64,000 nt of DNA from an uncultured Holophagaceae bacterium (GTDB taxonomy: Bacteria > Acidobacteriota > Holophagae > Holophagales > Holophagaceae): NCBI GenBank assembly GCA_903913215.1, contig CAIWKE010000011.1:1-64000 (forward strand), read 5' to 3'. Of this stretch, positions 14,783 to 52,043 are shown in pieces. Position 1 is the stretch's first letter. Each line of letters opens with the position of its first letter. The notes below the pieces were generated by a model. It was not told the origin of the DNA, did not search any database, and was given only the letters and a program-made list of their open reading frames with translations. Both the position numbers and the translations under genes were made by a program.

Positions 14783-17725
14783 TTAGAAGCGGAAGCCGGC
14801 GGACATGACCACGGTGCGGGGCGTGGCGAAGTTCAGGTAGCTGGTGGGCAGGCCGAAGCTGGAACCCTTGACCCAGGGGGAGTTCACACCCTGGCCAGCC
14901 ACGCCGTAGGTGCCGGTCGCGGCGGCGTAGGACGTGTTGAAGGTGACCACCTGCTGGTGGTTCAGCACGTTGCCGATGTTCAGCTTGCCGAAGGCCGTCA
15001 CGTTCTTGCTGCCCACCTTGAAGAGGGGGAAGTCGTGGGTGAGGGCCAGATCCAGGTAGGACTGAGCTTCGTAGACGCCTGCGCCGCGCGTCTGATCCTC
15101 GTACTGGGAGCCGCTGGCGCCCCACTGGGAGGACATGGCAGCGCCGCCGAGGCGGGCGCGGGTGATGGTGCGGGCGTTGCTGTAGTGGGCGCCGGAGTCA
15201 AAGCGGTAGACGAGGCCGATGGAGGTCTTGCCGTACTCGCTGAGGTAGGTGCGGCTGCCGGTGATGCGCGACCGGATGGGCTGGTGGCCCGTCAGGTAGC
15301 CGCTGGGGGCAGTGTCCAGGGGGTTGTAGTTGGTCACGCCGTTCTGGACATCAAAGTTGTGGATGCCTTCGCCGCGGGCGGGGCTGCTGGTGCCTTCACC
15401 CTCGTAGTTGCCCTTCAGCTGGCTCCAGGTGATGTTGCCCAGGAAGCTCCACTGATTGACGTTGTACTGGGATTCCAGTTCCAGGCCCTTGTAGGTGCGC
15501 TCGGCATCGGGATTGTTCGCCCAGACCTTGATGTAGACGGGGCCGGTGGCGGTGGCCACGGTGCCGTTGTTGCCGACACTGTAGTCGATGAGGTTCTTCC
15601 ACTTCTTGTCGACGCCAGTGACCTTTAGGTAGCCGTCGCCCATGGGGCCGAAGTTGAAGGAGAAGGCGTAGCTGGCCTGGACCTCGTCCGTGGTGGGAGC
15701 CTTCAGGTTGCTGGCGAGCTTGATGTTCAGCTTGGGGTCGTTGTAGTACTGCACGCCAGCGGGCGTGAAGTCGTAGTTGGCCAGGTTCTGCAGGACGGCG
15801 AAGCTCTGGGGGCCGCCGGGTCCCTTGTAAGCGTAGTCGATCTCGGTGGGGTTGCCCTGGCTGGTGACGGAGTTGGTGATGCCTTCCAGGACCTTGGCGT
15901 TGTAACGGGCGAAGCTGGCACCGAAGATGTGCTTGCTGTCGCCGTTCAGATCGTACTTCACGCCCAGGCGGGGGCTGAGGCCACTGGCGCCAGCCGTCTG
16001 GCTGCCACTTTCATTCTTGGCGTTGTACTTGTCGTAGCGCAGGCCGGCCTGGAAGTTCCAGTGCTGGTCGACGCTCCACTTGTCGTTGACATAGAGACCG
16101 ATGGAGTCGTTCTTGGCGGAGCCGGAGCCGTTCTGGTACGTCCAGATGGACTCGCCGAAGGCCACGCGGGCGCCCACGGTGGTGCCGGCGGGGTACTGGA
16201 GGGCGGGGCTCAGGTTGAGGCCGTAGACCTCAATGATGTAGCCCGAGGGGGTCTGGGAGTTCTTGGCCTTGCGGGTGCCCTCGTAGTAATCAACGCCGAA
16301 GTCGGTCTGGTGGCTACCGGCGGCATTCCAGAAGAGGCTGGCCTTGAGGTTCAGGGTCTGGTTGTCACGCTCGTCGCCGCCATCCGTGCTGTCGAAGATG
16401 CCGTTGTTGTAGTAGTAGCCGTTGTCATCGTTGTAGAAGGGGCTCTGACCGTTACCGGCGCCGCCTGCGGACAGGTTCTGGTGCTTCTTGCCGTAGCGCA
16501 GTTCTGTGGTCAGGTTGCTGGTCCAGGCAGAACGGAGCGCCATGTTGAAGAAGTCAGAGGTGCTGATCTGGGGAACCAGGGACAGCAGCTCACCGGCGGA
16601 GTAGTTGCGGTTGATCTGGTTGTTGGCATTCCGCATGTAGGAAGCCACCAGGGTGTGGTCCTGATTGATGGACCAGGTCAGCTTGGCCTGACGGCGAATT
16701 TCAGCCGAGGTCAGCGTGTAGCCGGCGTTGAGGCCAATGGCAGGATCGTTGAGGTTCTGGGCGGTAGGGGGCACACCAATCTTGGGGTAGTAGCCAGCGC
16801 CGGCGCTGAGGTCAGCGGCGATACCCGAGGTGGAGCCGCTGTTGGTCTTGAAGTAGGAACCCGCGAACCAGAGCTTGTCCTTGATGATGGGACCGCTCAA
16901 GTAGAGGGTCTTGGTCTCGTTCATGACGTTCAGGATCGCGGCACGATTCTGGGTGGGGGCGGTGGCATTCCAGGCGCCGTCGCTCAGTTCCCAACGCAGG
17001 GAGCCCGAGAACTCATTGCTGCCGGAACGAGTGATGGCGTTGATGACGCCGCCGTCCACATCGCCGTACTCGGCGGACATGGCACCGGTGACGACCTGGG
17101 TCTCTTCGATGGAGTCGTCGATGAGGGTGACGCCGCGGTTGTTGTAGGCGTTGTCAGCGATGTTCTGGCCGTCCAGCAGGTAGAGGTTGCCAGAGGTCTG
17201 GGCACCACGGATCTGGACGCGGCCGCCGACGCCGACGGTGACGCCGGGGGTGAGGAGGGCGACGCCTTCCATCGTGCGGGCGTTGGGCAGCATGTCGACG
17301 TTGTCGGCACGGTAGTTGGTGGCGGTCTTGATGTCCGTCTTGTCCACAGCGGGAGCGGCGGCGATCACTTCAACCACAGCGCCGCCAACCTTGGTGAGGG
17401 TCACCTTGGGGCTGAAGGTCTGGTCGATTCCGATCTGCTCGTTGATCTTGCGGGTCTCGAGGCCATCCTTGGTGTACTGGATGGTGTAGTAGCCGGGAGG
17501 CAGCAGGCGGGCGATGAATTTGCCGCTCACGTCCGTGGTGTAGGTGCGCACGCCCTGGAGGGCGGGGGAGCTGAGGCGGACAACCACACCAGCGAGGGGA
17601 GCGCCAGCGGCGTCCACGACCGTGCCAGTGATATTGGCGGTCTGGGTGCCCTGAGAGTAAAGAGCAGCCCCGCCCAGGGCGATGAGGGCCGTGATGCGGC
17701 CCAGGCGGTTGTTCAAGAGATGCAT
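14783..17725 (-). CDS. TonB-dependent receptor with carboxypeptidase regulatory-like domain
   Basis: MHLLNNRLGRITALIALGGAALYSQGTQTANITGTVVDAAGAPLAGV...; LYLLDGQNIADNAYNNRG; paralogue of 22418-25351. Confidence 0.92.
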   Translation of the reverse strand: MHLLNNRLGRITALIALGGAALYSQGTQTANITGTVVDAAGAPLAGVVVRLSSPALQGVRTYTTDVSGKFIARLLPPGYYTIQYTKDGLETRKINEQIGIDQTFSPKVTLTKVGGAVVEVIAAAPAVDKTDIKTATNYRADNVDMLPNARTMEGVALLTPGVTVGVGGRVQIRGAQTSGNLYLLDGQNIADNAYNNRGVTLIDDSIEETQVVTGAMSAEYGDVDGGVINAITRSGSNEFSGSLRWELSDGAWNATAPTQNRAAILNVMNETKTLYLSGPIIKDKLWFAGSYFKTNSGSTSGIAADLSAGAGYYPKIGVPPTAQNLNDPAIGLNAGYTLTSAEIRRQAKLTWSINQDHTLVASYMRNANNQINRNYSAGELLSLVPQISTSDFFNMALRSAWTSNLTTELRYGKKHQNLSAGGAGNGQSPFYNDDNGYYYNNGIFDSTDGGDERDNQTLNLKASLFWNAAGSHQTDFGVDYYEGTRKAKNSQTPSGYIIEVYGLNLSPALQYPAGTTVGARVAFGESIWTYQNGSGSAKNDSIGLYVNDKWSVDQHWNFQAGLRYDKYNAKNESGSQTAGASGLSPRLGVKYDLNGDSKHIFGASFARYNAKVLEGITNSVTSQGNPTEIDYAYKGPGGPQSFAVLQNLANYDFTPAGVQYYNDPKLNIKLASNLKAPTTDEVQASYAFSFNFGPMGDGYLKVTGVDKKWKNLIDYSVGNNGTVATATGPVYIKVWANNPDAERTYKGLELESQYNVNQWSFLGNITWSQLKGNYEGEGTSSPARGEGIHNFDVQNGVTNYNPLDTAPSGYLTGHQPIRSRITGSRTYLSEYGKTSIGLVYRFDSGAHYSNARTITRARLGGAAMSSQWGASGSQYEDQTRGAGVYEAQSYLDLALTHDFPLFKVGSKNVTAFGKLNIGNVLNHQQVVTFNTSYAAATGTYGVAGQGVNSPWVKGSSFGLPTSYLNFATPRTVVMSAGFRF

Positions 17726-18193
17726 AGCATCCTCCAAAAGGTCGGGACGGGTAGTAGGGGGGGGTCCCGAAGGGAAAAGCGGCATTCAATCCGGGACGGG
17801 AATTGAGTCCTCAACGGCGGAAGAATTTTTTATAAATTCATGCCGGGATTGAAATGGGGTTGGGAAAGAGCTTTGGGACGAACGGGTAACAATACCAGGG
17901 GGGACAAGGAGATTTTGTAAGATTAACGAAATGTCAGGGAACTAAGTTCCCTGGATCGGCACCTGACTGGCCCGAATATCGTCCATATTTCGTCACTTTT
18001 CTCCAGCTCAGCCGCGATTACACGCTCCTAGCCCAGCTTTTAGGCCTGGACTTGATCGAAAAGGTGCGTCCGGAGGTGGTGGTCTGCGGTAGCAGTAGGG
18101 GATCGGGGTATTCTTGATCCAGGTTCCTGAATGTCCCAAGGCCCAAGAAACAGCGATCGAATTCGATGACGGGATTCACCTTTAGGGTAGCGC

Positions 18194-20310: not shown

Positions 20311-20386
20311 GCCTGGGTAGCTCAGTTGGTAGAGCAATGGATTGAAAATCCATGTGTCGGCGGTTCGATTCCGTCTCCAGGCACCA
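20311..20386 (+). tRNA. tRNA-Phe (anticodon GAA), CCA encoded
   Basis: gcctgggtagctcagttggtagagcaatggattgaaaatccatgtgtcggcggttcgattccgtctccaggcacca; anticodon arm atgga-ttgaaaa-tccat. Confidence 0.97.
20336..20386 (+). repeat. attL: 51-bp direct repeat (3' part of intact tRNA-Phe)
   Basis: aatggattgaaaatccatgtgtcggcggttcgattccgtctccaggcacca, identical to 45950-46000. Confidence 0.95.
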
Positions 20387-20794: not shown

Positions 20795-22105
20795 TCAGAT
20801 TGGGAGGTGCGGCCGTGTGAGGTTGCGATGGCCAGCGGCGGTTACCAACAGATTGTCTTCGATCCTTATACCTCCGAAGGGAGTCAATTCGTCAATTAGT
20901 CTCCAGTCAAACATTGCCTGATGCTCGCTTTCCCGGAAGGGACGCAAGAGCATGGGAATGAAGTAGAGTCCTGGTTCCACGGTAAACACCTGATTCTCCG
21001 CGGTGGTGCAGGTTGTGCGCAAGGTCGGGTGCTGCAAGGGCGGAGGAGCAAGTGTTCCATCAGGGGCGGCCTGCCGACCTGCAACATCGTGAACCTGGAT
21101 GCCGAGATGGTGGCCTAGGCCATGGGGAAAGAAAGGGCGGCTGAGACCCTTCTCAACCGATTCTTCGGCGCTCTCTCTGAGGATCCCGCTATCCCTCAGC
21201 AAGCCAGCGATCAATATGTGGCCTTGGTGATGAAGGTCGCCATAGGGCATGCCGGGTTTTACAAGGTTGCAAAGCTGTGCTTGGATTTCCCCCATACCGG
21301 TGATGAGCGCCGTGAATCGGTTATCGCAATGGGGGGCAGGCATGGTGCGCGTTATATCTGAGGCATAGCCTCGCACCTGGGCCCCAGCATCGATTAGCAG
21401 GACGGCCCCATGCTTCTTCTTGCGCTTTCCTTCGTAGTGGAGGGTGGCGCCCATTTCGTTGAGGGCCACAATGCTGCCGTAGGGCATTTCGTGATCTACA
21501 ATTCCGGCGGCCTGGATGTATGCAAAGTGAATTTCCAGCTCACTGCCGCCTCCCAGAAAAGTGGATCTCGCGGCCAAGTGTCCGCGGGCGGCGATGATGG
21601 TGGCCTCTTCGATGCATGCGACTTCGTAGGCGGATTTGGTTGTGCGGTGCCAGTCCAGGTGTGCCGTGATGAGACTCGGGTTAAGTTCAAGGCCGGCCAA
21701 TTTGGCCCGATCAAACTCATTGCCGATATAGGCGGCACTTTGAGGGGTGCCCAGTTGCTTCCATACATCTTCGATGGTGCTAGCCTCTTCAATTTCAAAT
21801 TCGGAAGCCCAGAATGGGCCCCCGAGCGGGGGCTGCTCATACCAGAAATCTTCGGGAGCAAAGCGGATCAAACGTGGGCGTTTGCCAGGCCGGATCACCA
21901 GCACATGATGTGGCCCGGGCATGGGGCACCAGTGGGCGAAGTGGGGCGTCGGGTGGAACGGAGCAACCTGATCATCAGCAAAATGGGTGTAGACCTGTCC
22001 GCTGGAGATCACTAGCGTCTCGAATCCTGTCTGGGCAAGAGCTTCTTCTGTTGTGCGCTGCCGGTCAGCGATGTGGGTTTGGAAAAGGGAGGCTAGATCA
22101 GTCAT
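20795..22105 (-). CDS. pepQ: Xaa-Pro dipeptidase (prolidase), peptidase M24 family
   Basis: LLIDAGAQVRGYASDITRTMP...FFPHGLGHHLGIQVHDVAG...VFTVEPGLYFIPML...GGIRIEDNLLVT metal-ligand motifs; N-terminal PepQ-like domain. Confidence 0.88.
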   Translation of the reverse strand: MTDLASLFQTHIADRQRTTEEALAQTGFETLVISSGQVYTHFADDQVAPFHPTPHFAHWCPMPGPHHVLVIRPGKRPRLIRFAPEDFWYEQPPLGGPFWASEFEIEEASTIEDVWKQLGTPQSAAYIGNEFDRAKLAGLELNPSLITAHLDWHRTTKSAYEVACIEEATIIAARGHLAARSTFLGGGSELEIHFAYIQAAGIVDHEMPYGSIVALNEMGATLHYEGKRKKKHGAVLLIDAGAQVRGYASDITRTMPAPHCDNRFTALITGMGEIQAQLCNLVKPGMPYGDLHHQGHILIAGLLRDSGILRESAEESVEKGLSRPFFPHGLGHHLGIQVHDVAGRQAAPDGTLAPPPLQHPTLRTTCTTAENQVFTVEPGLYFIPMLLRPFRESEHQAMFDWRLIDELTPFGGIRIEDNLLVTAAGHRNLTRPHLPI

Positions 22106-22327
22106 TTGGTAGTCCAGGCGAAAGCTCAGGGTGGCCAAGCCCCACTTCTGGGTCCCTGAGACTGGCCACCAGGAGGGTCCGTACAACTGCTTCTGCTTGG
22201 TCTACCAGGCAAAATCTCATGCAAGCTTCGGTGAGAGTGAGCATCCCGGTATGTTTCAAACATTCTGGGGTTATTGCGCCAAGGCTGCCCTTCCCACGGC
22301 TGAGACAACCGCGGAAAACTAGGCCGA

Positions 22328-22376
22328 GTGGTGTCTCAGGTAGGGTCCAGCAAAGGAACCCACCTGCGACACCACC
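22328..22376. terminator. Interrupted stem-loop between TonB receptor and pepQ
   Basis: gtggtgtc-t-caggt ... acctg-c-gacaccac. Confidence 0.45.
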
Positions 22377-22417
22377 AGGACTCACCGAAGGGCGAACAGC
22401 AGCGGTTTCCTCACCAC

Positions 22418-25351
22418 CTAGAACTTCAGGCCAGCCGAAAGGGAAATGATGCGGGCGTCACCGTAGTCAGAGGAGGCCGTGGGCTGCCCGAAATTCGAGA
22501 TGGGAACCCAGGGGGAGGCCAGGCTGCCTGCGGCTGTTTGGGGCACACCGTTATACCCGGTGCGGAAATAGATAACCTGCTGGTGATTGAAGACATTGCT
22601 GATGCCCATCTTCAGGAAGGCTTCGAGCTTCTTGTCACCCAACTGGTAAACCGGCAATGTGTGGGTGATGGCCAGATCGAGGAAGGCCGAACCGTTGTAC
22701 ACGCCCTGGCCGCGCGCCTCGTCTTTATACTGGCTTGTATATTGAAACGCGCTGGGGAGGCCCGGGTTTAGCTGCGCCGGATAGATGGTTCGGTAGTTCG
22801 AATAATGGGAACCCGAATCGAACCGGTAGACAAGGCCGACATTCGTACGACCATAGACGTTGTTGTACTCGCGGCTGGCCGTGAAGCGCATGCGGATGGG
22901 CACATCCCCGGTCAGGGGGCCGTAGCCATTGGTCGCCCTCCAATCGTACATCGTGGTGCCCTTGTAGACATCGTAGTAATGGATCGATTGGCCGCTGACG
23001 GGCGTCAACGCCTGTTCCCCCTCGTAATTTCCCTTCAGGGAACTCCAGGTAATGTTGCCTTGGACGGTCCAGTCCTGGACATGGTACTGGGCTTCCAATT
23101 CCAGGTCCTTGTACTCACGCGTGGCGTCCGGGTTGTTGCTCCAGTACTTCACGTCCACCTTGGTTTGCCAGTAGTCCGGAAGCGTGACCTGGCCGTTGTT
23201 GCCCACGCTCACGTCGATCAGGTTCTTCCACTTCTTGCTGACGGCGGTGAGTTTCAGGTACCCATTTCCATAGGCGCCGATATCGAAGGGATGGGACAGG
23301 CTGGCCTGCAATTCGTCCACGGAAGGGGGCTTAATCTTCGGATCCAGGCGCACATTGACGGTAGGATTGCTGTACCCGGCGACCCAGGAGGTGTCGTAAT
23401 TCGCGGGATTCGTTATTGCCGAGAATGGAACACGGTTGTGGGGGTTTATGGAGTAACCGGCATATTCATAACTAGTCGCGTAGTACGTCGTGACGGTGGG
23501 ATTGCCCTGGCTGGTCACCATATTGGTGAGCCCCTCCTGGACCTTGCCGTTGTAACGGGCCGCACTGAGGCCAGCGATCCAGGCCCCGTCTCCCTTGACA
23601 TCGTAGGTGAGACCCAGGCGTGGGGACCAGTTGGAGGCGCTCGCCGATGTTGCGCCCGTATCGTTCTTGGCGCTGTATGTGTCCCAGCGCAGGCCCATTT
23701 GCAGACTCAAATGCCGGTTGACGGTCCACTTGTCGTTGACATAGAGTCCGTGAGAAAGGCTCTTAGCTTCGCCGCTTCCGCTTTGGTAGACATACATGGC
23801 ATAGGGTATGCCGGAAGGACCGGGGTAGGCGGGGGTGCTGCTGGTGGCGGGGATGGTGGTGAGGTTGGTGTAGCCGTCGGAGAAAATGATATTATTCCGG
23901 CCCTGCTGGTTTCGGGAACTGCGAATGCCCTCCAGATAGTCCACCCCAAAATCGAGTGTATGTTCCCCAGCCAAGGAAAGGAAAAGGGTACCCTTGAGGT
24001 TGCCGGACTGGTTGTCGCGATGGTCCCCGCCGTCCAGGCTACCGACCCATGGTGTGGCGTTGTAATAGGCACCGGCGCTGTAATCCCAGATTGGGTCCCG
24101 AGTCGTGCTACCGGTGGTGGCGTTCACATATTGTTTCTTGCCAAACCGGAGTTCGCTCGTGAAATTGCTGGACCAGATGGAGCGCAAGGCGACGTTAATG
24201 AAATTCGAAGTGACGGTCTGAGAATACAGGGCATCCAGATTCCCAACTGTGGACGCGCCATCGACGGTGTCTCGCGCATTGCGCATATAGGATGCGACGA
24301 GGTTCTGGTCCTGCGTGATGGCCCAGGTGAGCTTGAGCTGGCGGCGGATGTCCTTGGTCCCAGTGGTAATGGATGAGTTGAGGCCTCCGGGGCCATTGCC
24401 GGCACCGTAGTACGAAGCATAAGGGACGGAGCCAAGGTCATAGCCGATGCTTTGAGACAAGTCTGAATCGGTGGTGAAAAAGGAGCCCGAGAACCAGAGC
24501 TTATCCTTGATGACGGGGCCACTCAGCGAGATCGTCTTCGTCTGCCCCAGGATATTCTTTACGCCCGCGCGATCCTGGAGGGGCTTCATGGCGCTCCATG
24601 CCGGATTGGCCAAGTCCCAGCGCAGGCTTCCCGCAAAGGCGTTGCTACCGGACCGGGTGATGGCGTTCATCACCCCCCCCTCCACGTTTCCATACTCGGC
24701 CGACATGGCGCCGGTCACCACCTGGACTTCATTTACCGAATCGTCGATGATGGCGACGCCGACCGATTGATAAAAGTTGTCGGTAATGTTCTGGCCGTCA
24801 AGAAGGTAGAGATTGGTCGTGGTCTGGGCGCCTCGGATCTGCGTCCTGCCGTTAACCCCAGTCGTTACCCCCGGGGTGAGCAGGGCGATGGCGTCCAAAG
24901 ACCGACCCGTCGGCAGCTGATCAATGGAGTCCGCGCTGTAATTGGCGGCGCTTTTGACTTCATGCATATCCAGGGCCGCCGTCATGGCCACAACCTCGAC
25001 CATCGCCTGGCTCACCGTTGTCATGACGATCCTTGGTGAGAAGGTCTGATCAATGCCGAGCTTTTCACTGATCTTGCGGGTCTCGAGGCCCTCCTTGGTG
25101 ATCGTGAGGTTGTAGAAGCCGGGCGGCAACAAGCGAACGAAGAAATGACCGTCTTTGTCGGTGGTGCTGACCCGCACGCCCTGGAGCTCCTTGGCGGTCA
25201 TGCGCACCGTCACGCCGGCAAGGGGAGCTCCCTGCCCGTCCACCACGGTGCCCGTTATGTTGGCGGTCTGGCTGCCTTGGGCGATCAGGGGGGATGAGCC
25301 CAGAACAAGGATGGTCAGGAGGCGGTTTGATAAACTGAACCGTGATTTCAT
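22418..25351 (-). CDS. TonB-dependent receptor (island cargo)
   Basis: MKSRFSLSNRLLTILVLGSSPLIAQGSQTANITGTVVDGQGAPLAGVTVRM...; LYLLDGQNITDNFYQSVG; GPVIKDKLWFSGSF. Confidence 0.92.
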   Translation of the reverse strand: MKSRFSLSNRLLTILVLGSSPLIAQGSQTANITGTVVDGQGAPLAGVTVRMTAKELQGVRVSTTDKDGHFFVRLLPPGFYNLTITKEGLETRKISEKLGIDQTFSPRIVMTTVSQAMVEVVAMTAALDMHEVKSAANYSADSIDQLPTGRSLDAIALLTPGVTTGVNGRTQIRGAQTTTNLYLLDGQNITDNFYQSVGVAIIDDSVNEVQVVTGAMSAEYGNVEGGVMNAITRSGSNAFAGSLRWDLANPAWSAMKPLQDRAGVKNILGQTKTISLSGPVIKDKLWFSGSFFTTDSDLSQSIGYDLGSVPYASYYGAGNGPGGLNSSITTGTKDIRRQLKLTWAITQDQNLVASYMRNARDTVDGASTVGNLDALYSQTVTSNFINVALRSIWSSNFTSELRFGKKQYVNATTGSTTRDPIWDYSAGAYYNATPWVGSLDGGDHRDNQSGNLKGTLFLSLAGEHTLDFGVDYLEGIRSSRNQQGRNNIIFSDGYTNLTTIPATSSTPAYPGPSGIPYAMYVYQSGSGEAKSLSHGLYVNDKWTVNRHLSLQMGLRWDTYSAKNDTGATSASASNWSPRLGLTYDVKGDGAWIAGLSAARYNGKVQEGLTNMVTSQGNPTVTTYYATSYEYAGYSINPHNRVPFSAITNPANYDTSWVAGYSNPTVNVRLDPKIKPPSVDELQASLSHPFDIGAYGNGYLKLTAVSKKWKNLIDVSVGNNGQVTLPDYWQTKVDVKYWSNNPDATREYKDLELEAQYHVQDWTVQGNITWSSLKGNYEGEQALTPVSGQSIHYYDVYKGTTMYDWRATNGYGPLTGDVPIRMRFTASREYNNVYGRTNVGLVYRFDSGSHYSNYRTIYPAQLNPGLPSAFQYTSQYKDEARGQGVYNGSAFLDLAITHTLPVYQLGDKKLEAFLKMGISNVFNHQQVIYFRTGYNGVPQTAAGSLASPWVPISNFGQPTASSDYGDARIISLSAGLKF

Positions 25352-25644
25352 TTCTGGCTCCTCGGTAGGTGCAGTGGGGTTTGGCGATGGTCCTGGGAGA
25401 GAGAAAGGCTCAATGTCTTCCCTGGGGTTCTGCGTAGTCAGAACTTTCGGGATGTGGTGAGAATTCTGCCCTCCGAGCGCGGGCCGCCACGCCTCCAGGT
25501 TCCCCGCACGGCTGAGCTGTATCGCCATACCGCGCAGCTGTCGCTCACATCCGCGCACCCGTCCTACTTCCCTTAACCAGGGCTCAACCGCATCCACATT
25601 CCTTGGTGAAGGTGCAGGGCTCGGAAGCTACCATGGTGGCCATG

Positions 25645-26397
25645 ACCGCCTTGAGAATGGCCTTGATTGAAGACGAACCGGTGGCCCGGAGGAGGTTGGT
25701 GCGCCTGCTGGAAGATGCCGGTTGCGTTGTGGTCGGAGCCTACGAACACGGCGAGGCCTTTTTCGCCGACCAGGCCCGCATCGCCCCCCTCGACGGGCTG
25801 TTTCTGGATATACAACTCCCCGGAGCGAACGGCTTCGAGATCCTGGCGGAAATTCCAGATCCTCCCGCCATCATTTTCGTTACGGCCTTCTCCGATGAGG
25901 CGGTGCGGGGATTTGAGGTCCGTGCGGTAGATTATTTGGTAAAGCCGGTTTATGCGGACCGCCTGCAAGAGACCCTTGTCCGGGTGCAGGACTGGAAAGC
26001 GCGGCGGCACCTGCCCGGAAGGCCCCCCCACGACACCCCCAAAGCCACTCAACCCACCTTGGTGAGCCGAGTCATGGTCAAGGCCGGTGATGGGCGGTTG
26101 TTTCTGGAGATGCGCAGAATCACCCATTTCGAGGTCGAACAGGAAGTGGTCTGGTGCTGGTCCGGTGGGCAGCGTTACCGGACCCATTGGACCAACGCCC
26201 GGGAAGTTATAGAAGCCCTCCATGGGGTCGAACTCATTAAAATTCAGCGCAACTTGCTTCTTCGCCCAGAGGCTGTCCTTGGTTACAAACCCCTCATGGG
26301 TGGTCGCATCAAGGTCCGGCTCATCGATAACTTGGAACTAGAGGTGAGTCGGAGTGCCACGCCGCAACTGAGGGACTGGCTTTCCAATAAGCTGTAG
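25645..26397 (+). CDS. LytTR-family response regulator (REC + LytTR DNA-binding)
   Basis: MALIEDEPVARRRLVRLLEDAGC...GLFLDIQLPGANGFEIL...FVTAFSDEAVRGFEVRAVDYLVKPV...; LytTR-like C-terminus. Start uncertain (M at 25645, 25660 or upstream). Confidence 0.88.
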   Translation, partial: TALRMALIEDEPVARRRLVRLLEDAGCVVVGAYEHGEAFFADQARIAPLDGLFLDIQLPGANGFEILAEIPDPPAIIFVTAFSDEAVRGFEVRAVDYLVKPVYADRLQETLVRVQDWKARRHLPGRPPHDTPKATQPTLVSRVMVKAGDGRLFLEMRRITHFEVEQEVVWCWSGGQRYRTHWTNAREVIEALHGVELIKIQRNLLLRPEAVLGYKPLMGGRIKVRLIDNLELEVSRSATPQLRDWLSNKL

Positions 26398-26414
26398 CCA
26401 CGTCCCGGAACGCG

Positions 26415-26835
26415 GTGAAAGGTGACAATTCGGCGGCTCTATGGTGCGTTGGTTTCGGTAAGCTCCCAAGGGTTAAGGGGCATGCGAGAATTTCGCATAT
26501 GCATCAGGTTTCCTCTGCACCAACCAGTCCGGGGCCAGACCGTCCACTGGGACGAACCTCCACCCGCCCTACGTTTCCCCTGTGGGGCTTAATGACGGTC
26601 GTTGCGGTATCAACCTGGATCTGGTTCGACACGCTGAAAGCAGCTCTCCTATGTCCCTGGACCTGGCTTACAGGTATCTCTGCCTCACAGATCATTACCA
26701 TAGGACTCGCATGGGTCAGCCGCCTGCCCTGGCCCTGGCTTTGTTCTGCATGGGGCTCACGTTTCTTCCTCAAACGGCTGGACACGGGCCATCTCGTTTG
26801 TGAAAACCTCGGGGGCCATCTCCCCGCTGTCCTAG
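26415..26835 (+). pseudogene. Truncated duplicate of the N-terminal membrane half of the LytS-like histidine kinase at 31249-32319
   Basis: MHQVSSAPTSPGPDRPLGRTSTRPTFPLWGLMTVVAVSTWIWFDT... parallels MHQVSSAPTRPGPGRPLGRPSTRLTFLLWGLTTVIASSVWIWFDT...; homology lost around 26830, no kinase domain. Confidence 0.85.
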
Positions 26836-27452
26836 CTACGACATTCATCCCCGGCGTTGGGATGTCGCCGAGTCCATGCATCCCAGGGCTGAGTTGGACA
26901 CCGACCGGGACGAGTTGGGAATCGATGTCATCCATACTGCATGGGCACGGAACCTGCTCACACTTTGCCTCTGCCGCGACGAGTGGATCCTGAACGTGGC
27001 CCCGGGTGGCAGACCAATCCAGGATGTGCCTGACCACTTCAACTGTGTGCAGGAGCAATACCAGCATTGGACAGGGGAGGTGCCCGAAATGCACCACCGG
27101 TTAAAGCTCGATCCAGAATCAAGCTTGCGGACCCTGCAGGGCGAGGATGTCCTCCTTGTCATCGACCGCCCCAGGCGGTGGAGCGCGTGGCGCCCGGCTT
27201 GTCGACGGTGGTTTGGCATCTGGGTAAAGTCCACCCCGGTTCTGGACCCTTCATCGAGACCCTGGAAGTTATTAATCCGAATCGCCGGGTCGCTGGGTCG
27301 CCGGGGTCCAGTGGCACCCCGAATTCTCATCTGACTCAATGACCCTGTCGGCGATGCCGCGCGGGACCTCTTCGTCGGTTTCGTGTTGGGAGTAGATCGA
27401 AGCTGACCCACAACCTCCAAGGCTCTGCCCCACACTCCAAAGGAAAGCACCC

Positions 27453-29567
27453 ATGAAACCCATTCAACTACTCCTTGCGATCGGCCTGCCGTTGCTCAGC
27501 CAGACCGCACCCATCCAGGTCAAATCCATGCCGGAATCTGCAACCGCAGTTCCTCAGGATCCCTACCTCTGGCTGGAGGATGTCACCGGCGAGAAGGCCC
27601 TGGCCTGGGTCAAGGAGCGGAATCTGGAATCTGCCCAGGAACTGGAGGGTACCTCCGCCTACCAGGCCTTGCAGGATGGCATCCTGAAGATCCTCGATTC
27701 CGAGGCCAAGATCCCCTACATCAGCAAGGAAGGGGCCTATTTCTACAATTTATGGCGGAACGCCAAACATCCCCGCGGCCTCTGGCGGCGCACCTCCCTC
27801 GCCGAATACCGGAAACCGGAACCGAAGTGGGAAGTGGTGCTCGATATTGATGCCCTGGGCACGGCCGAAAAGGAGAGCTGGGTTTTACATGGAACCAAAT
27901 TCCTGAAGCCTGGCTTCACCCGTTGCCTGATCACCCTTTCCCGCGGCGGTTCAGACGCCGCCGTGGTGAGGGAATTTGATGTGACAACCAAGTCCTTCGT
28001 GAAGGAAGGCTTTCAGCTGCCGCAGGCAAAGAGTGAGGTGAGCTGGATCGACCGTGACAACCTCTTCGTGGGCACGGATTTCGGACCGGAGTCCCTGACC
28101 ACCTCCGGCTACCCTCGGACCGCGAGGCGCTGGACGCGCGGAACGCCACTCTCCATGGCCAAGCAGGTGTTTGAGGGACAGGTCAAGGACGTGGCCGCCG
28201 GCGCTTACCATGACGCCACGCCTGGGTTCGAGCGCGACTTCGCCTTCCGTTCGCCCGATTACTTCACGCGCCAGACCTTCCTCCTGGACAAGGACGGCCA
28301 CGCCCGGAAGCTCGACCTGCCTGACGATGCGGAGCCATCGGTCTGCCGCCAGTGGCTGCTGGTGAAACTCCGCACTGTCTGGACCGTGGGTGGTCACACC
28401 TACGCCGCAGGCTCCCTGGTTGCCACGGACTTCGACGCCTTCCTGGCCGGCGAGCGGGTGTTTACCGTGCTCTTCGAGCCCACTACCACCACATCCCTGG
28501 AGGCCTACACCTGGACCCGGCACCACCTCATCCTCAACCTGCTGGAGGATGTGAAGACCCGGCTTTATGTGCTCACGCCCGAAAAGGGCGTGTGGAAGCG
28601 GGCGGCCCTCAAGGGTGCGCCGGCCATTGGCACAGCTTCGGCCTGGGGCGTTGATCCGGATCACAGCGACGACTACTTCTTGCAGGTGAACGGCTTCCTC
28701 ACCCCCGACACCCTCTACTACGGCACCCTCGGCAAAGACCCCGAAAAGCTGAAGGCCTCCCCTTCCTTCTTCGACACCAAGCGGCTGGAGGTCAGCCAGC
28801 ACTTCGCCAAGTCCAAGGACGGTACTCGGATCCCCTACTTCCAGGTCTCCCGGAAAGGCCTCAAGCTCAATGGCTCGCACCCTACCCTACTCAATGGCTA
28901 TGGAGGCTTCGAGGTATCCATGCTATCGAGCTATGCCGGCATCCGCGGCCTAGGCTGGCTCGACAGAGGTGGCGTATTCATTCTGGCCAACATCCGGGGC
29001 GGAGGAGAGTATGGACCAGAGTGGCATGGGGCTGCACTGAAGGCGAACCGGCATAAAGCCTATGAGGACTTCGCCGCTGTGGCGGTGGACCTAATCACCC
29101 GTAAAGTAACTTCATCCCAGCACCTGGGGTGCCTGGGCGGCAGCAATGGTGGGCTGCTGGTGGGCAACATGCTCACCCAGTACCCGCAGCTGTTCGGGAG
29201 CATCGTTTGCCAGGTGCCCCTGCTGGACATGAAGCGCTATACCCACCTGCTGGCGGGCGCTTCCTGGGAGGGTGAATACGGCGATCCCGACAAGCCAGAA
29301 CAATGGACTTACATCAAGACCTTTTCGCCCTATCAGAACGTGAAGGCCGGGGTGAAATATCCCCCCACGCTCTTCATGACCACCACCCGGGATGACCGGG
29401 TGCATCCCGGACACGCCCGCAAAATGATGGCCAAGATGAAGGATCTGGGCTGCGATGTGCGCTACTTCGAGAACGTCGAAGGTGGCCACGGCGCCGGTGC
29501 CGACAACCACCAAAGTGCCCACTTCTGGAGCTTGGCCTACACCTTCCTGTGGCAAACGCTCAATTAG
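27453..29567 (+). CDS. Prolyl oligopeptidase family serine peptidase (S9)
   Basis: DPYLWLEDVTGEKALAWVKERN...; NIRGGGEYGPEWHGAALKANRHKAYEDF; GGSNGGLLVGNMLTQYPQLF; DDRVHPGHARKM; N-terminal signal-like. Confidence 0.95.
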   Translation: MKPIQLLLAIGLPLLSQTAPIQVKSMPESATAVPQDPYLWLEDVTGEKALAWVKERNLESAQELEGTSAYQALQDGILKILDSEAKIPYISKEGAYFYNLWRNAKHPRGLWRRTSLAEYRKPEPKWEVVLDIDALGTAEKESWVLHGTKFLKPGFTRCLITLSRGGSDAAVVREFDVTTKSFVKEGFQLPQAKSEVSWIDRDNLFVGTDFGPESLTTSGYPRTARRWTRGTPLSMAKQVFEGQVKDVAAGAYHDATPGFERDFAFRSPDYFTRQTFLLDKDGHARKLDLPDDAEPSVCRQWLLVKLRTVWTVGGHTYAAGSLVATDFDAFLAGERVFTVLFEPTTTTSLEAYTWTRHHLILNLLEDVKTRLYVLTPEKGVWKRAALKGAPAIGTASAWGVDPDHSDDYFLQVNGFLTPDTLYYGTLGKDPEKLKASPSFFDTKRLEVSQHFAKSKDGTRIPYFQVSRKGLKLNGSHPTLLNGYGGFEVSMLSSYAGIRGLGWLDRGGVFILANIRGGGEYGPEWHGAALKANRHKAYEDFAAVAVDLITRKVTSSQHLGCLGGSNGGLLVGNMLTQYPQLFGSIVCQVPLLDMKRYTHLLAGASWEGEYGDPDKPEQWTYIKTFSPYQNVKAGVKYPPTLFMTTTRDDRVHPGHARKMMAKMKDLGCDVRYFENVEGGHGAGADNHQSAHFWSLAYTFLWQTLN

Positions 29568-29605
29568 GAAGATGAACCAGCCTGAAATCTCACACGGAGT
29601 GAATC

Positions 29606-30715
29606 ATGAATTTATTTAGAATGAGCCTGCTAGTTCTCATGGTTGTGCCTGCGATCCTGGCCCAGGAAACAGACTTGACCCTGAACGATGCCATGGCCGA
29701 CCGTTTCGCCTCGATGGCCCTCAAGTGCGTCCGGCAGGAATTCCCCAACAGGCCTGATCATGTGTTGAATAAGTTGGAAGAGGTGAAGGCGCCCAGGTTG
29801 ATGCATCCAGCTTTCTACGGTTGCTACGACTGGCACTCATCCGTGCATGGTCACTGGATGCTGATAAAGCTGCTGCGGGAACATCCCGGGATGGCCCGGG
29901 CTGCTGACATCCGAGCCGTACTGGACGAAAACCTCTCGCCAGACCGCATCGCGACTGAGGTGGCTTACCTACACCAGAACAATCGCAAAAGCTTTGAGCG
30001 CACCTATGGCTGGGCCTGGCTTCTGAAGCTTGAGGCCGAGTTGCTCACCTGGGAGGATACGGGTGCACAGCGCTGGTCCATGGCACTGAAGCCTCTGGCG
30101 GATGAGCTGGCCACCCAGTTCCAGGCCTTCCTTCTGAAACAAACCTACCCCATTCGCAACGGTATTCACCCCAACACGGCTTTCAGCTTGGAGTTGGCCC
30201 TGGAATACGCTCAGGTCAGTAAGAATACCCGTCTTGAAGATTTGATCCGCGACCGCGCCCGGACTTGGTTCTTACAGGACCGCAACGGTCCACTCAGCTG
30301 GGAGCCCGGGGGCGAGGACTTCCTGTCTCCCTGTCTGGAGGAGGCGGCCTTGATGGCGCGAGTGCTTCCCCATACAGCTTTCCGCCGCTGGTTCGACAAG
30401 TTCCTACCTGAGGCACCAAAGGGGATCGTACCTGCGGTGGTCTCGGACCGCACGGATTCTAGGATCGTACACCTGGATGGTTTGAACCTTAGTCGGGCCC
30501 GAGCCCTGCACAGCATAAGTAAGGCCCTCGGCCCCTCAGATCCAAGGAGATCCGCCCTGTTACAGAGCGCGGATTTCCACGCACGCGCCTCCCTTCCACA
30601 TCTCGCTTCTGGTAGTTACGAGGGCGAGCATTGGCTGGCAACCTTTGCTGTGCGGATGTTAGCGGAGCGCCAGTCAATTACTTGGCCTGACAAAACACCT
30701 ACAATGCAGAGATGA
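29606..30715 (+). CDS. DUF2891-like exported protein
   Basis: Signal peptide; LMHPAFYGCYDWHSSVHGHWMLIKLL signature; SWEPGGEDFLSPCLEEA. Confidence 0.85.
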   Translation: MNLFRMSLLVLMVVPAILAQETDLTLNDAMADRFASMALKCVRQEFPNRPDHVLNKLEEVKAPRLMHPAFYGCYDWHSSVHGHWMLIKLLREHPGMARAADIRAVLDENLSPDRIATEVAYLHQNNRKSFERTYGWAWLLKLEAELLTWEDTGAQRWSMALKPLADELATQFQAFLLKQTYPIRNGIHPNTAFSLELALEYAQVSKNTRLEDLIRDRARTWFLQDRNGPLSWEPGGEDFLSPCLEEAALMARVLPHTAFRRWFDKFLPEAPKGIVPAVVSDRTDSRIVHLDGLNLSRARALHSISKALGPSDPRRSALLQSADFHARASLPHLASGSYEGEHWLATFAVRMLAERQSITWPDKTPTMQR

Positions 30716-30890
30716 AGCCAGGGAGGCTGCACCACAAGGAAGGGCTCGAAGGACAAAGCGGTCCAGTCGCATGTGCCTACCACCTGTACCCAGGCTGGCC
30801 TAGTTGGTCACACCTTAGTGCGGCTTCCAATCCTCTTGATGGTTAAAGGCCTCCTTCACCATCCCACACTAGCTGTGTTGCAATGAAGCC

Positions 30891-31147
30891 ATGAGGACGC
30901 CCCCTGCCAAGCCAAGCCAGATCCTGATTGTCGAGTATGAAACCCATGCATATCATCGAACGAGTATTCAAGGGTCTCTTGCTGAAAAGTGACGGCTCAG
31001 ACCTAACTCCCCACCAATATCGACCCGACGTTATAACCGAGCGACCAATCGCACTGCCGTAGCCCAGTTGGGTGCCTGTGACTCACTGCGCTATCAGGGA
31101 GGGATCTTGCAGGACAACTGAGGGCCTGGCTTTCCAATAAGCTGCAG
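30891..31147 (+). pseudogene. Possible response regulator relic upstream of second kinase copy
   Basis: MRTPPAKPSQILIVEYETHA... (REC-start-like) ends early; 31115-31143 matches the final codons of the 25645-26397 regulator with TAG changed to CAG. Confidence 0.4.
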
Positions 31148-31248
31148 CTACATCCCGGAACGCGGTGAAAGGTGACAATTCGGCGGCTCTATGGTGCGTT
31201 GGTTTCGGGAAGCTCCCGAGGTTTCAGGGGCATGCGAGAATTTCGCAT

Positions 31249-32319
31249 ATGCACCAGGTTTCCTCCGCTCCAACCCGTCCGGGGCCGGGCCGTCCACTAG
31301 GACGACCCTCCACTCGCCTTACGTTTCTCCTATGGGGATTGACGACGGTCATTGCGTCATCGGTCTGGATTTGGTTCGATACGCGGAAAGCCCCTTTCCT
31401 GAGTCCCTGGATCTGGATTGCCGACATCTCTGCGGCACTGGTCATGACCACTGGGCTCGCCTGGGTCGCCCGCCTGCCCTGGTCCTGGTTCGGTTCTGAA
31501 TGGGGCTTACGACCCTTCCTCAAACGGCTGGGCATGGGTTTACTTGTTTGTGAAGCCTGGGAGGTCATCCACGTCCTTGTGGGGGTCACCCTCAGGAGAA
31601 AGGCTGGACTTCCTGTCGAGGCATGGGACCTGCTCATTCTTCAACTGTGCATTTCCGGTCCTTTCATGGTGATGTTTGGCGGCCTGATTTGGGGGCAGGA
31701 CCAGGCTGTTCAGGACCGTGAAGCCATCCGACAGGAAGCTGTTTCGGCTCAGCTCCAGGCGCTTCAAAGCCAGATCCAGCCCCATGCACTCATCAACAGT
31801 CTGAATGGTCTGGCGGAGCTGATCCACGAGGATCCGGTCCAAGCGTCCAATGTGGTTCGCGCCCTCACTCGGCTTCTACAAAATATCCATGGCTGCATCG
31901 AGAACATCACCATTCCACTCTCCAAGGAATTCCGGATCCTGGAGGATTACCTTTTCCTGGAAGGCATCAAATTGGGAGACCGGCTGCAAGTGCTTTGGGA
32001 AAGGGATCCCTCCCTTGAGCAGGTGTCCATTCCGCCCCTAGCACTGCAATGCCTCGTGGAAAATGCCCTGAAACATGGCATTGCCCCCTCGCCTCAAGGT
32101 GGTCAGGTCAGAATCCGGACGACCAGCCAGAGCGGGCGCGTCCTACTGGAAATCTGGAATACCACCGGCCCTGGCCACCAAAACGCCGGCCAGGGAACTG
32201 GACTCGGCAACCTCCGGGCGAGGCTGAACTTGATCTTTGGTGGAAGCGCCCAATTCTCTATGAGGCGTGAGGGTGATTGGACCGTTGCGACGATCGACCT
32301 AGAGCATCCGGAACCCTGA
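31249..32319 (+). CDS. LytS/YehU-like sensor histidine kinase (membrane N-terminus + His_kinase + HATPase)
   Basis: LQALQSQIQPHALINSLNGLAELI; PPLALQCLVENALKHGI; GTGLGNLRARL; several TM segments. ORF opens at 31165, 31249 start preferred. Confidence 0.9.
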   Translation: MHQVSSAPTRPGPGRPLGRPSTRLTFLLWGLTTVIASSVWIWFDTRKAPFLSPWIWIADISAALVMTTGLAWVARLPWSWFGSEWGLRPFLKRLGMGLLVCEAWEVIHVLVGVTLRRKAGLPVEAWDLLILQLCISGPFMVMFGGLIWGQDQAVQDREAIRQEAVSAQLQALQSQIQPHALINSLNGLAELIHEDPVQASNVVRALTRLLQNIHGCIENITIPLSKEFRILEDYLFLEGIKLGDRLQVLWERDPSLEQVSIPPLALQCLVENALKHGIAPSPQGGQVRIRTTSQSGRVLLEIWNTTGPGHQNAGQGTGLGNLRARLNLIFGGSAQFSMRREGDWTVATIDLEHPEP

Positions 32320-32372
32320 AGGAGGCTCTTTCCATCCCGCGCCTCATGCGCACCCATTAAGGGAGCTGAAAC

Positions 32373-33269
32373 ATGGAAATGAAGCAAGCCGTCCTGGATC
32401 TTATTCCCGGCAGGCTAGTGCGAATCTTTGCCTCGCCCTATGTGGCCGGGAAGGGCCTCATCAGTGGTATCCGGAAGGCCGAAGAGCTCCACCTCAAGCA
32501 AGGACTTTGTACCACCCTTGACCTCCTAGGCGAAGAAGTCGTCAAGGCCGAGGAGGTGAACGCGACCGTCGACCTCTATTATCGGATGATTGAAGAGGCC
32601 GCCAGCAAACCCTACATCACCATCAGCCTGAAACCCACCCAGCTCGGGATCCTCCAGGGGGAAGCCGAGTGCCAGCAAAATCTCAGGCGCATCGTGGCAC
32701 TGGCAGCGCAAAAGGGCGTTCGGGTCACGCTTGACATGGAAGACCACCTACTTACTGACGTTACGCTGCGGATGTTCAAGGCCATTCGGAGTGAATTCGA
32801 CAATTTTGGCATTGTTCTTCAAAGTCGCCTCTTCCGGACGCCTGAAGATATACAAGCTTTACACCTTCGTCCCTGCAGGGTCCGAATCTGCATAGGCATC
32901 TACCGGGAGCCCAGCGCAATCGCCTATCAAGATAAGCCGGTGATGAAACAGAAACTCCTGGAGTGTGTGAAATTGTTGCTCGACCACGGCCACTATCCGG
33001 AAATCGCGACTCACGATGAATCGCTGATTCGCAAATGCATCAACTACCTAGACAGCCTCGGTGTCCCCAAAGACGACTACGAATTCCAGATGCTCCTTGG
33101 CGTCCCACGAACGGCCTTACAACAGGAAATCGTCAAGCGCGGCCAGGTTATGCGGATCTATGTCCCTTTTGCGGAGGAATGGGAATTCGCCATCCACTAT
33201 CTTAAACGCCGGCTAGGTGCCAACCCCTTCATGCTGGGGATGGTCGTTAGAAACATTTTCAGTCGTTGA
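32373..33269 (+). CDS. Proline dehydrogenase (monofunctional PRODH family)
   Basis: ISLKPTQLGI...VRVTLDMEDHLLTDVTL...GIVLQSRLFRTPEDI...CRVRICIGIYREPSAIAYQDK...EIATHDESLI...FQMLLGVPR...MRIYVPFAEEWEFAIHYLKRRLGANP. Confidence 0.92.
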   Translation: MEMKQAVLDLIPGRLVRIFASPYVAGKGLISGIRKAEELHLKQGLCTTLDLLGEEVVKAEEVNATVDLYYRMIEEAASKPYITISLKPTQLGILQGEAECQQNLRRIVALAAQKGVRVTLDMEDHLLTDVTLRMFKAIRSEFDNFGIVLQSRLFRTPEDIQALHLRPCRVRICIGIYREPSAIAYQDKPVMKQKLLECVKLLLDHGHYPEIATHDESLIRKCINYLDSLGVPKDDYEFQMLLGVPRTALQQEIVKRGQVMRIYVPFAEEWEFAIHYLKRRLGANPFMLGMVVRNIFSR

Positions 33270-34367: not shown

Positions 34368-34443
34368 AGCCTGCTCCGTCTGGGTCCCAGCCATCACCCC
34401 CCTTTTGTGAGGGGCGACGGCTGGGACCCAGACGGAGCAGGCT
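34368..34443. repeat. 76-bp perfect palindrome (25-bp arms)
   Basis: agcctgctccgtctgggtcccagcc ... ggctgggacccagacggagcaggct. Confidence 0.95.
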
Positions 34444-35516: not shown

Positions 35517-36227
35517 CTAAATCAATTCGGAATCGGAATCTTCATCAGGTTCCCAAGGGGTAAACAGGTAGCCTGCCCAGGCCGCAGCGAAGGCCCAGGA
35601 TCGCACCTGCCCTTCCGGCAGAGCGGCAAATCCACCCTGGATCTCGGCGCCGGTTACCTGCTCAAAACGGGTGTTCCCATCCATCTGAAGGGGATTCAGG
35701 ATTACCAGCGGGCCCCTGCCGAGGGCTGTCATCAATGCGCTAAATTTCGCGTGGACAAATATCAACCCCATCGAGCTCGGGCAAGCGAAGAGCTGGCATC
35801 TTCGATCCCCGGGAAACCCTCGGAGGCAGGAGAGTCGAATTCGCTTGATCAGATCCTCTACTGCTTGCCGCTCTGCTGCCTTTCGGAAGCCTTCCCGGTG
35901 GCGCTGCAGAAGGACCTTTAGCTCTCGAAGACGCTCGACCTGGTGTTGATGGGTCAGCTCCTGCTGTTCAATCCAAGACCAAAGCTCGTCCCATCGTTGC
36001 TGCACATCAGGGTGAATCCCCGGGGCCATGCACTGAGGCAGTGGTCGAGGCTCAGCCCCCGGTCCGATGAGCTTCCTCTCCAGATACACGCCGACCGGCC
36101 ACGGGGCGGTATCGCGGATCAAGCCCGCGAAGAACCCCTTGCCAGTGGCGGTCGAAGTCGAATGGCTTGATCCGTTCAGGATCGACGATTCTGCTGCCGC
36201 CGGTGTACTCCCCATCCAGACCTCCAA
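35517..36227 (-). CDS. Hypothetical protein, possibly mobilization accessory
   Basis: Same strand and overlapping the 3' end of the relaxase gene; coiled region followed by globular C-terminus. Confidence 0.5.
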   Translation of the reverse strand: MEVWMGSTPAAAESSILNGSSHSTSTATGKGFFAGLIRDTAPWPVGVYLERKLIGPGAEPRPLPQCMAPGIHPDVQQRWDELWSWIEQQELTHQHQVERLRELKVLLQRHREGFRKAAERQAVEDLIKRIRLSCLRGFPGDRRCQLFACPSSMGLIFVHAKFSALMTALGRGPLVILNPLQMDGNTRFEQVTGAEIQGGFAALPEGQVRSWAFAAAWAGYLFTPWEPDEDSDSELI

Positions 36228-36996
36228 TCAAGGCAAAGAAGCGCTTACCCGAGAGTTCTTTGACACCCAAGCGGCTGGCCGGAATCGTGAATCCTGTGCT
36301 CACCTCCCGCCAGCACACACCAATCGGATGCCCATCCCGCCACGTTGTGTTCGGCTCCCATCCCCGCCGATTCATTTCCAAGAGGACCCCCCCCTTTCGG
36401 AAGCCCGCAGCCAGCACAGCCTTAAGTTCCTCACGGAGGGCCTGCTTTCGCGTCGCCTTGCCGCGCTGGGCCACCTTCTTTTCCCGGTTGGTAGCCTTTG
36501 GGCCTTCCGATCTTCCATGGACCGACCGTGGCCGCCGCGGCGATTCGACACGGCGGTACCCATACTGAATTTCCATGCTCCTGAGGATTTTCTCAATGCG
36601 ACGGAATTCCCTGAGATGTTCACGGGAAACCCGGCCATCCGGGTGGACTCGAGTGCCGATCATATGAAAATGTGAGTTGGCCGAGTCCTGATGCTTGACG
36701 ACCACATAGGCACCCCAGCCCTTGGTCTCGGCAAAGGTGGCAGCCATTTCCAGTTCCCTGGAGGGATCTGCCCATTCTCCCGGAGCCAGGGAAATCCACC
36801 CATGTTCGATGGGATTCCGGACATCCGGTCGCAGGCGGCACAGCCAGTCGAAATGGGCGATCAGGTCTTCCTCACCCCCCACCACCAGAGTGCCCCCCAG
36901 GATGTAGCCACGCCATTCCCCTGATCCTGATTTTGCACGCAGGAGGTAGCGCACCAAGGGGGCGGCCTCGGCCATTTTGGTCAGCCCGGCGATCAT
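36052..36996 (-). CDS. Relaxase / mobilization nuclease (MobA/VirD2-like)
   Basis: MIAGLTKMAEAAPLVRYLL...; HGWISLAPGEW...; VVVKHQDSANSHFHMIGTRVHPDGRVSREHLREFRRIEKIL (H-x-H motif); ATGA overlap with mobC. Confidence 0.85.
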   Translation of the reverse strand: MIAGLTKMAEAAPLVRYLLRAKSGSGEWRGYILGGTLVVGGEEDLIAHFDWLCRLRPDVRNPIEHGWISLAPGEWADPSRELEMAATFAETKGWGAYVVVKHQDSANSHFHMIGTRVHPDGRVSREHLREFRRIEKILRSMEIQYGYRRVESPRRPRSVHGRSEGPKATNREKKVAQRGKATRKQALREELKAVLAAGFRKGGVLLEMNRRGWEPNTTWRDGHPIGVCWREVSTGFTIPASRLGVKELSGKRFFALIGGLDGEYTGGSRIVDPERIKPFDFDRHWQGVLRGLDPRYRPVAGRRVSGEEAHRTGG

Positions 36997-37445
36997 GGCA
37001 CCTGCTCCAACACCTGCCGAATCTCGACGACCGCCCGAAGGGTGTCCTCCACAGCAGCACAGGACGCGCCTTCGGAATGAAGCCGACGAATGGCCTGGTT
37101 GAGGTTCACCCCCACCCTGTTGAGTTCCCTGGCCAGGGCCATGTGCCCCTCGGATGGCAAGGGGCGACCTGCCTGTGCTCTCAGCCAGATGGCCCGCGAG
37201 AGGCTGATGCCCATCCGCCCAGCCTCTTCCGACCATTGACTGTAGTCTACGGGCCTGAGGGTGATCGTGACCTGGATGGTGCGAGCTTCTTCACGGTTTA
37301 CTCGGCGCGGTGACACGGACTCTGCCTTCCTTCCTGTTTGGAGTTCCCTGAGGTATCGAAAACGCCGATTCCTCAACCCCTTGCAGCAGCCTGCCGTCGC
37401 CATGCGAACACGTCCAGGCAAACTCAGGGGCTTGGCATGGTCCAC
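36993..37445 (-). CDS. MobC-like relaxosome protein
   Basis: ELNRVGVNLNQAIRRLHSEGASCAAVEDTLRAVVEIRQVLEQ; start possibly 37403. Confidence 0.8.
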   Translation of the reverse strand: MDHAKPLSLPGRVRMATAGCCKGLRNRRFRYLRELQTGRKAESVSPRRVNREEARTIQVTITLRPVDYSQWSEEAGRMGISLSRAIWLRAQAGRPLPSEGHMALARELNRVGVNLNQAIRRLHSEGASCAAVEDTLRAVVEIRQVLEQVP

Positions 37446-39449: not shown

Positions 39450-39574
39450 TCCCCGCCGCAACCCGCAACCGGACCTGAATCCAGGTCCGGTGGTTGCAGG
39501 GCGGTTTCACTCAACCCAATTCAGACTCCCGAACATCTGGCGGCTTGCCGTTCGGGATCGGTCTGCCCATTCAT

Positions 39575-39808
39575 ATGAGGATCCCAATGGATCTGTCCAA
39601 GTACCGTCTGCTCACCGTCGACCAATTCTGCGATTTGGCGAACATCACGCGTTCTCAGTTCGACGTGGAACGCCGTGCGGGTCGCCTCAAACCCATCATC
39701 CTTGGCATCCGGGCGCTCCGGATCACCTTCGAGGATTACCTGGATTGGGTGATGCTGCACAAAGCTGGAACTGCCCGCACCCCTGCGAGCAAAGGGGGCG
39801 CGCAGTGA
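39575..39808 (+). CDS. Excisionase/AlpA-like helix-turn-helix protein
   Basis: YRLLTVDQFCDLANITRSQFDVERRAGRLKPIILGIRALRITFEDYLDWV; upstream of primase-helicase with GTGA overlap. Confidence 0.7.
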   Translation: MRIPMDLSKYRLLTVDQFCDLANITRSQFDVERRAGRLKPIILGIRALRITFEDYLDWVMLHKAGTARTPASKGGAQ

Positions 39809-51894: not shown

Positions 51895-52043
51895 GGCTGC
51901 CTTGGGATCGGAAGACCGGACGAGATGGCCACGACCCGTTGCCGCACTCCGCTCCTACCCACTGACCCATCATGGACCTAGTACGTTTAAGAAGGGCCCT
52001 CGCGGGGAGGCGTTAATCTGGTGGTTTCTGTTTCGGAGTGACC

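Follow-up and report, generated by a model that had tools for sequence, protein, structure and literature searches.

Positions 20795–33269 of a 64,000-nucleotide stretch of contig CAIWKE010000011.1 (assembly GCA_903913215.1; the whole stretch is called the window below), from an uncultured Holophagaceae bacterium, carry a set of peptide- and proline-related genes inside a 25.6-kb genomic island bounded by exact 51-bp repeats of a tRNA-Phe gene. Our analysis indicates that this region is probably the composite cargo of an integrative, mobilizable tRNA-Phe island in a Geothrix-like soil bacterium, built piecewise from the chromosomes of relatives. A preliminary description of the same DNA had read these genes as a transferable system for scavenging proline-rich peptides. 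Because the cargo was collected piecewise and its genes do not travel together elsewhere among the genomes examined, we regard it as a patchwork and not as a new proline-scavenging system.

Composition and origin of the cargo

Strong profile matches bear out the identities first proposed for the seven cargo proteins. Encoded on the reverse strand are a PepQ-type Xaa-Pro dipeptidase, or prolidase, with PepQ_N and M24 domains (open reading frame (ORF) 20795–22186; the true start is probably MTDLASLF, giving a gene at 20795–22105), and an OAR-type TonB-dependent receptor with CarboxypepD_reg, Plug and beta-barrel domains (ORF 22418–25597; gene 22418–25354, with a signal-peptide start near 25354). 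The forward strand encodes a response regulator with receiver and LytTR-like domains (25603–26397; the LytTR domain scores 22.3 bits, just under the Pfam cut-off of 22.6), an S9 prolyl oligopeptidase with Peptidase_S9_N and S9 domains and a signal-like N-terminus (27453–29567), an exported alpha/alpha-toroid protein of the DUF2891 family (29606–30715), a LytS-like sensor kinase with His_kinase and HATPase domains (31165–32319) and a monofunctional, Thermus-type proline dehydrogenase (PRODH) with a Pro_dh domain (32373–33269). The gaps between S9 and DUF2891 and between the kinase and PRODH measure 38 and 53 bp. Judging from the divergent arrangement of the receptor and the LytTR regulator, the receptor at least may be under the control of the two-component pair.

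The enzymes retain the residues expected of their families. The best PDB match of S9 is a 'post-proline cleaving enzyme' (410 bits, compared with 141 bits for oligopeptidase B); in line with prolyl oligopeptidases of type S9A, it has a beta-propeller domain and, in the alignment, the Ser-Asp-His triad in GGSNGG, DDRV and GGHGAG. PepQ is nearest to prolidases of the organophosphate-anhydrolase type and keeps their catalytic motifs. PRODH aligns best with the Thermus enzyme (2ekg) and preserves K in ISLK, D in MED, YREP, Y in YVP and RR, which we take to have roles in the proline/FAD site. The predicted structure of the DUF2891 protein (mean predicted local distance difference test score, 81) superposes on Campylobacter Cj0554 with a template modelling (TM) score of 0.80–0.90 at 39% identity. 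The complete-looking path from uptake to oxidation described earlier is nevertheless not complete, as profile searches recognised neither an inner-membrane transporter nor a pyrroline-5-carboxylate (P5C) dehydrogenase among the island ORFs. Chromosomal aldehyde dehydrogenases match TIGR01237, all of them under its cut-off.

All five enzyme and receptor genes also exist on the host's own chromosome, as diverged copies of PepQ (contig C21, 75% identity to the island protein), PRODH (C35, 66%), DUF2891 (C8, 67%), S9 (C26, 73%) and the TonB receptor (window 14783–17785, 52%). The island thus brings no new pathway, nor any capacity that the host is otherwise without. The S9, DUF2891, PepQ and PRODH genes differ from the host copies mainly at third codon positions, with ratios of non-synonymous to synonymous change, by a simple count, of 0.22, 0.20, 0.08 and 0.11, respectively. 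This bias indicates that the four enzymes are, or formerly were, under purifying selection; together with the intact catalytic motifs, it makes it plausible that the island genes supply added peptide and proline degradation.

The cargo set does not occur as a unit in relatives. We surveyed 60 relatives, 77 family-level genomes and 80 DUF2891 loci from GTDB; outside the host, the closest DUF2891 matches come from Holophagaceae bins and Geothrix limicola, and the host's genus appears to be Geothrix. Nearly all of about 47 genomes of this genus carry PepQ, PRODH and DUF2891 on the chromosome, at scattered sites, and S9 occurs in fewer of its members. In one single-contig genome (G019), for instance, PepQ lies at 1.64, PRODH at 1.71, DUF2891 at 2.68 and S9 at 4.09 Mb. 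The genes were found together in none of the 60 relatives or the 77 family genomes, where they form scattered single loci, and none of the 80 DUF2891 loci has PepQ, PRODH or a TonB receptor nearby (one lies near an S9 of a different type and two near a generic kinase/regulator pair). The preliminary description had proposed this co-occurrence check for its transferable scavenging system, and no co-conservation beyond this genome was found; these genomic comparisons give no support to an undescribed, co-conserved proline system. A literature search likewise found no paper joining these enzymes with a TonB receptor in one cluster.

The kinase has no relative in the genus above 41% identity over most of its length. 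A GTDB scan for it with exact short peptide patterns, a weak test, gave 33 pattern matches among which tblastn found no relative, and a plasmid search returned only generic histidine kinases below 60% identity. In the host, a LanB-type lantibiotic dehydratase gene (contig C8, locus L110, 4318–9683) is oriented divergently to the nearest kinase–regulator pair of the genus.

Phylogenetic trees indicate that the island copies derive from at least two Geothrix lineages. Island PRODH falls inside a clade of G002, G032, G024, G014 and others (clade B; support 97/93), and its placement with clade A, formed by G019, G003 and the host's own copy, is rejected by the approximately unbiased (AU) test (p = 0.003). 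Conversely, island DUF2891 lies inside clade A (98/89), and its placement with clade B is rejected (AU p = 0.0003); the clades tested were picked after the first trees had been seen. These tests reject a single common donor for the whole cargo. Island S9 groups with G068, G003 and the host copy, and the PepQ tree gives no resolved placement within the genus.

Assembly traces and competing explanations

Part of the assembly can be read from two scars that flank S9. A 456-bp segment holding the tail of the regulator and the start of the kinase is present twice on the forward strand, at 26365–26820 and 31115–31570, with 83.6% identity. In the second member, the regulator tail has lost its stop codon and is followed by the start of the intact kinase; the first member ends at about kinase residue 130 and passes directly into the remnant of a Peptidase_C26 gene. 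The truncated kinase fragment (26415–26807) differs from the intact copy by 21, 19 and 28 changes at the three codon positions, and with such near-equal counts it behaves as a drifting pseudogene. The Peptidase_C26 remnant (class-I glutamine amidotransferase; about 26834–27385, forward strand) is decayed as well, with 42% identity, a disturbed frame, a stop codon and its first quarter gone. The gene list of the preliminary description stands for the named families, but it omitted both of these broken genes. A 535-bp conserved stretch before S9, considered as a possible known RNA, had no Rfam match and proved to be the Peptidase_C26 remnant. The host, G003 and G068 each carry an intact Peptidase_C26 gene directly ahead of their chromosomal S9, and it is their S9 copies that lie closest to the island S9 in the tree; this shared order indicates that the island S9 was taken from a chromosome of this kind along with part of its neighbour.

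The chromosomal counterparts of several cargo genes lie close to tRNA genes. DUF2891 is 52–118 bp from tRNA-Ser(CGA) in 23 of 30 genus loci, PRODH follows the 3' end of tRNA-Lys(CTT) at a distance of 163–168 bp in 6 of 11, and the TonB receptor is 2.4–6.2 kb from tRNA-Phe in all nine relatives compared. With tRNA positions taken from two closed genomes, uniform placement would bring three out of five genes to within 2.6 kb of a tRNA with a probability of about 0.001–0.002, in a test chosen post hoc. In the host itself, the chromosomal PRODH gene is separated from tRNA-Lys by a 7.8-kb integrase element with a 48-bp repeat (C35:30471–38328; loci L227 and L097).

Several elements of the assembly can be seen in the comparisons themselves: insertion at tRNA-Phe, diverged (xenologous) second copies of genes that the genus keeps at scattered chromosomal sites, more than one donor, S9 captured with a fragment of its Peptidase_C26 neighbour, and the duplication scar beside it. 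The remainder of the route is tentative. Elements docking at tRNA-Ser, tRNA-Lys and tRNA-Phe may have picked up the adjoining DUF2891, PRODH and TonB receptor genes, and the pieces may then have merged by accretion or homologous recombination, with S9 and PepQ acquired through recombination. The genes that were kept could add to or re-regulate peptide uptake and breakdown, with proline as one product, through the divergent receptor/LytTR arrangement, and their products would pass to transporters and a P5C dehydrogenase of the host itself.

Could the genes instead form a purpose-built, regulated module, in which peptides enter through the receptor, exported S9 cleaves them behind proline residues, PepQ hydrolyses the Xaa-Pro dipeptides, PRODH oxidises the proline and LytTR/LytS controls the whole? 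Three of the seven cargo proteins (PepQ, S9 and PRODH) act on proline or on bonds that it forms. Taking about 17 genes of this kind (S9, 10 confident; M24-like, about 5; PRODH, 2) in an estimated 3,500, drawing at least three among seven has a probability near 4e-6, again judged post hoc, and the intact motifs, purifying selection and operon-like spacing of S9–DUF2891 and kinase–PRODH fit a working unit. Yet such a module would have to be reconciled with the lack of co-conservation in every set surveyed, with a host that already has each enzyme, with the missing transporter and P5C dehydrogenase and with cargo genes from different donors; moreover, the linked PepQ/S9/POT-like transporter locus that the genus does possess is chromosomal. 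We consider a purpose-built module unlikely, while retaining a functional contribution as a rival because three proline enzymes among seven is unusual.

Location alone, whereby tRNA-docking elements took whatever core genes flank their sites with no selection for proline, draws on the tRNA-adjacent counterparts and on the element caught between tRNA-Lys and PRODH. It appears a rather doubtful explanation by itself, given that PepQ and S9 lie 18–42 kb from tRNAs in the genus, so that location accounts for part of the cargo only. Furthermore, Rfam found neither a tRNA-Ser nor a tRNA-Lys remnant in the island, DUF2891 and the TonB receptor are situated 5' of their tRNAs, opposite the usual insertion end, and the cargo genes bear the mark of purifying selection. 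A further alternative is that the cargo consists of neutral, decaying relics in transit with no present use. The two broken genes between intact ones and the long branch of PRODH would suit such decay, but all seven cargo frames are fully open, and the four compared enzymes show third-position-biased change in the very stretch where two remnants have decayed; we consider neutral decay very improbable.

Piecewise assembly into a composite island, which we favour, has evidence to answer as well. The distance of PepQ and S9 from tRNA genes also weighs against the docking route, no intermediate element with a partial cargo was found, and the long branch of island PRODH makes its position in the tree less sure. 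Random sampling would rarely yield three proline-acting proteins among seven, and this theme, although recognised post hoc, leaves room for functional selection. More speculatively, tRNA-docking islands may collect, by preference, second copies of core genes that neighbour tRNAs, so that chromosomal geography determines the theme of a cargo and selection then maintains it; we hold this general form to be possible but not probable. If it were true, the present island would serve as an example, three of its five core-derived genes having counterparts beside tRNA genes, and a general link between cargo and tRNA adjacency would change how the 'functions' of island cargo are read. Capture by location is the more interesting remainder of this analysis, albeit unproven. 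More immediately, the region illustrates that extra copies of core genes, patched together, can resemble a transferable pathway, and that scars such as a duplicated gene start and a neighbour's pseudogene reveal part of its assembly.

The island and its insertion site

The island is an integrative and mobilizable element at tRNA-Phe by its sequence features, in agreement with the tRNA-targeted mobilizable element of the preliminary description. ARAGORN places tRNA-Phe(GAA) at 20311–20386 on the forward strand, and its last 51 bp, the left attachment repeat attL (20336–20386), recur exactly as attR at 45950–46000. Inside these borders lie a tyrosine integrase (44533–45816, reverse), a MobA-type relaxase (36052–37236, reverse; the frame is probably over-extended at its start) and a MobC/NikA-like mobilization protein (36993–37445, reverse), all recognised by profile. 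A primase/AAA ATPase-like replication protein (39490–42126, forward) is named from motifs in its own sequence and has no NCBIfam match. In the relative G012, deoA and tRNA-Phe join, within 89 bp, sequence matching window 52013 onward; this empty site identifies the island as an insertion. The G+C content is about 0.57–0.61 across most of the cargo half, compared with 0.61–0.71 outside. Relatives of the MobA relaxase occur in 3 of 395 other genomes of the phylum, at no more than 40% identity; no conjugation machine was seen among the island ORFs examined, and Rfam matched nothing in the island except tRNA-Phe and its attachment-site copy.

Other features of the island include two hairpins, a perfect one of 26 bp and one of 33 bp at 94% (window 42183–42239 and 34368–34443), which are possible origins of transfer or terminators. 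A Schlafen AlbA_2/RecG-C-like protein (42846–44606) that overlaps the 3' end region of the integrase is a possible element regulator or defence gene. Past attR, positions 46001–52012 hold a further non-core insertion with a G+C content mostly of 0.65–0.71, encoding a protein of 1,537 aa whose sequence resembles adenylation domains. In G002, two identical tRNA-Phe copies enclose a small element of about 1.8 kb whose integrase-like frame is broken (L219, 3000–4914), which marks this tRNA as a site of repeated docking.

Relation to known systems

Individual parts of the cargo resemble known proteins. Island PRODH shares its fold family and, in alignment, the conserved proline/FAD motifs with the monofunctional enzymes of Thermus and Deinococcus, and differs from them in its island location beside a sensor kinase and in having no P5C dehydrogenase with it. 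The DUF2891 protein has the same fold as its homologue in the Campylobacter jejuni operon cj0552-4 (DUF969-DUF979-DUF2891), whose mutant loses growth on 5-oxoproline (PMC12795558; PDB 8ieu/8iev), but in the island no recognised DUF969/979 transporter stands beside it. As the Campylobacter operon is needed on 5-oxoproline, the island DUF2891 protein is as likely to be tied to cyclised glutamine as to proline. A Campylobacter-like pairing of DUF2891 with a 5-oxoproline transporter was also considered for the genus and rejected; the loci read there adjoin carB and tRNA-Ser, as judged from ORFs.

At the level of gene sets, the nearest likeness is the PepQ/S9/POT-like locus of the genus, in which a prolidase, an S9-family peptidase and a peptide-transporter-like gene of the major facilitator superfamily lie within about 7 kb (L098, L102, L224 and L225; in L223, the transporter is outside the stretch read). 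Unlike the island set, this locus is chromosomal and conserved, and its S9 belongs to another subfamily with no significant match to the island S9. As an element, the island most resembles tRNA- or tmRNA-targeted mobilizable elements that grow by tandem accretion, such as the ssrA islands of Dehalococcoides (PMC3146451), with which it shares direct repeats of an RNA-gene end, an integrase, mobilization genes with no conjugation machine seen among the ORFs examined, and a composite cargo of discordant phylogenies; growth of tandem islands by accretion is discussed in the same work. Here, however, the target is tRNA-Phe, and the cargo consists of second copies of genus core genes in place of an accessory respiratory trait.

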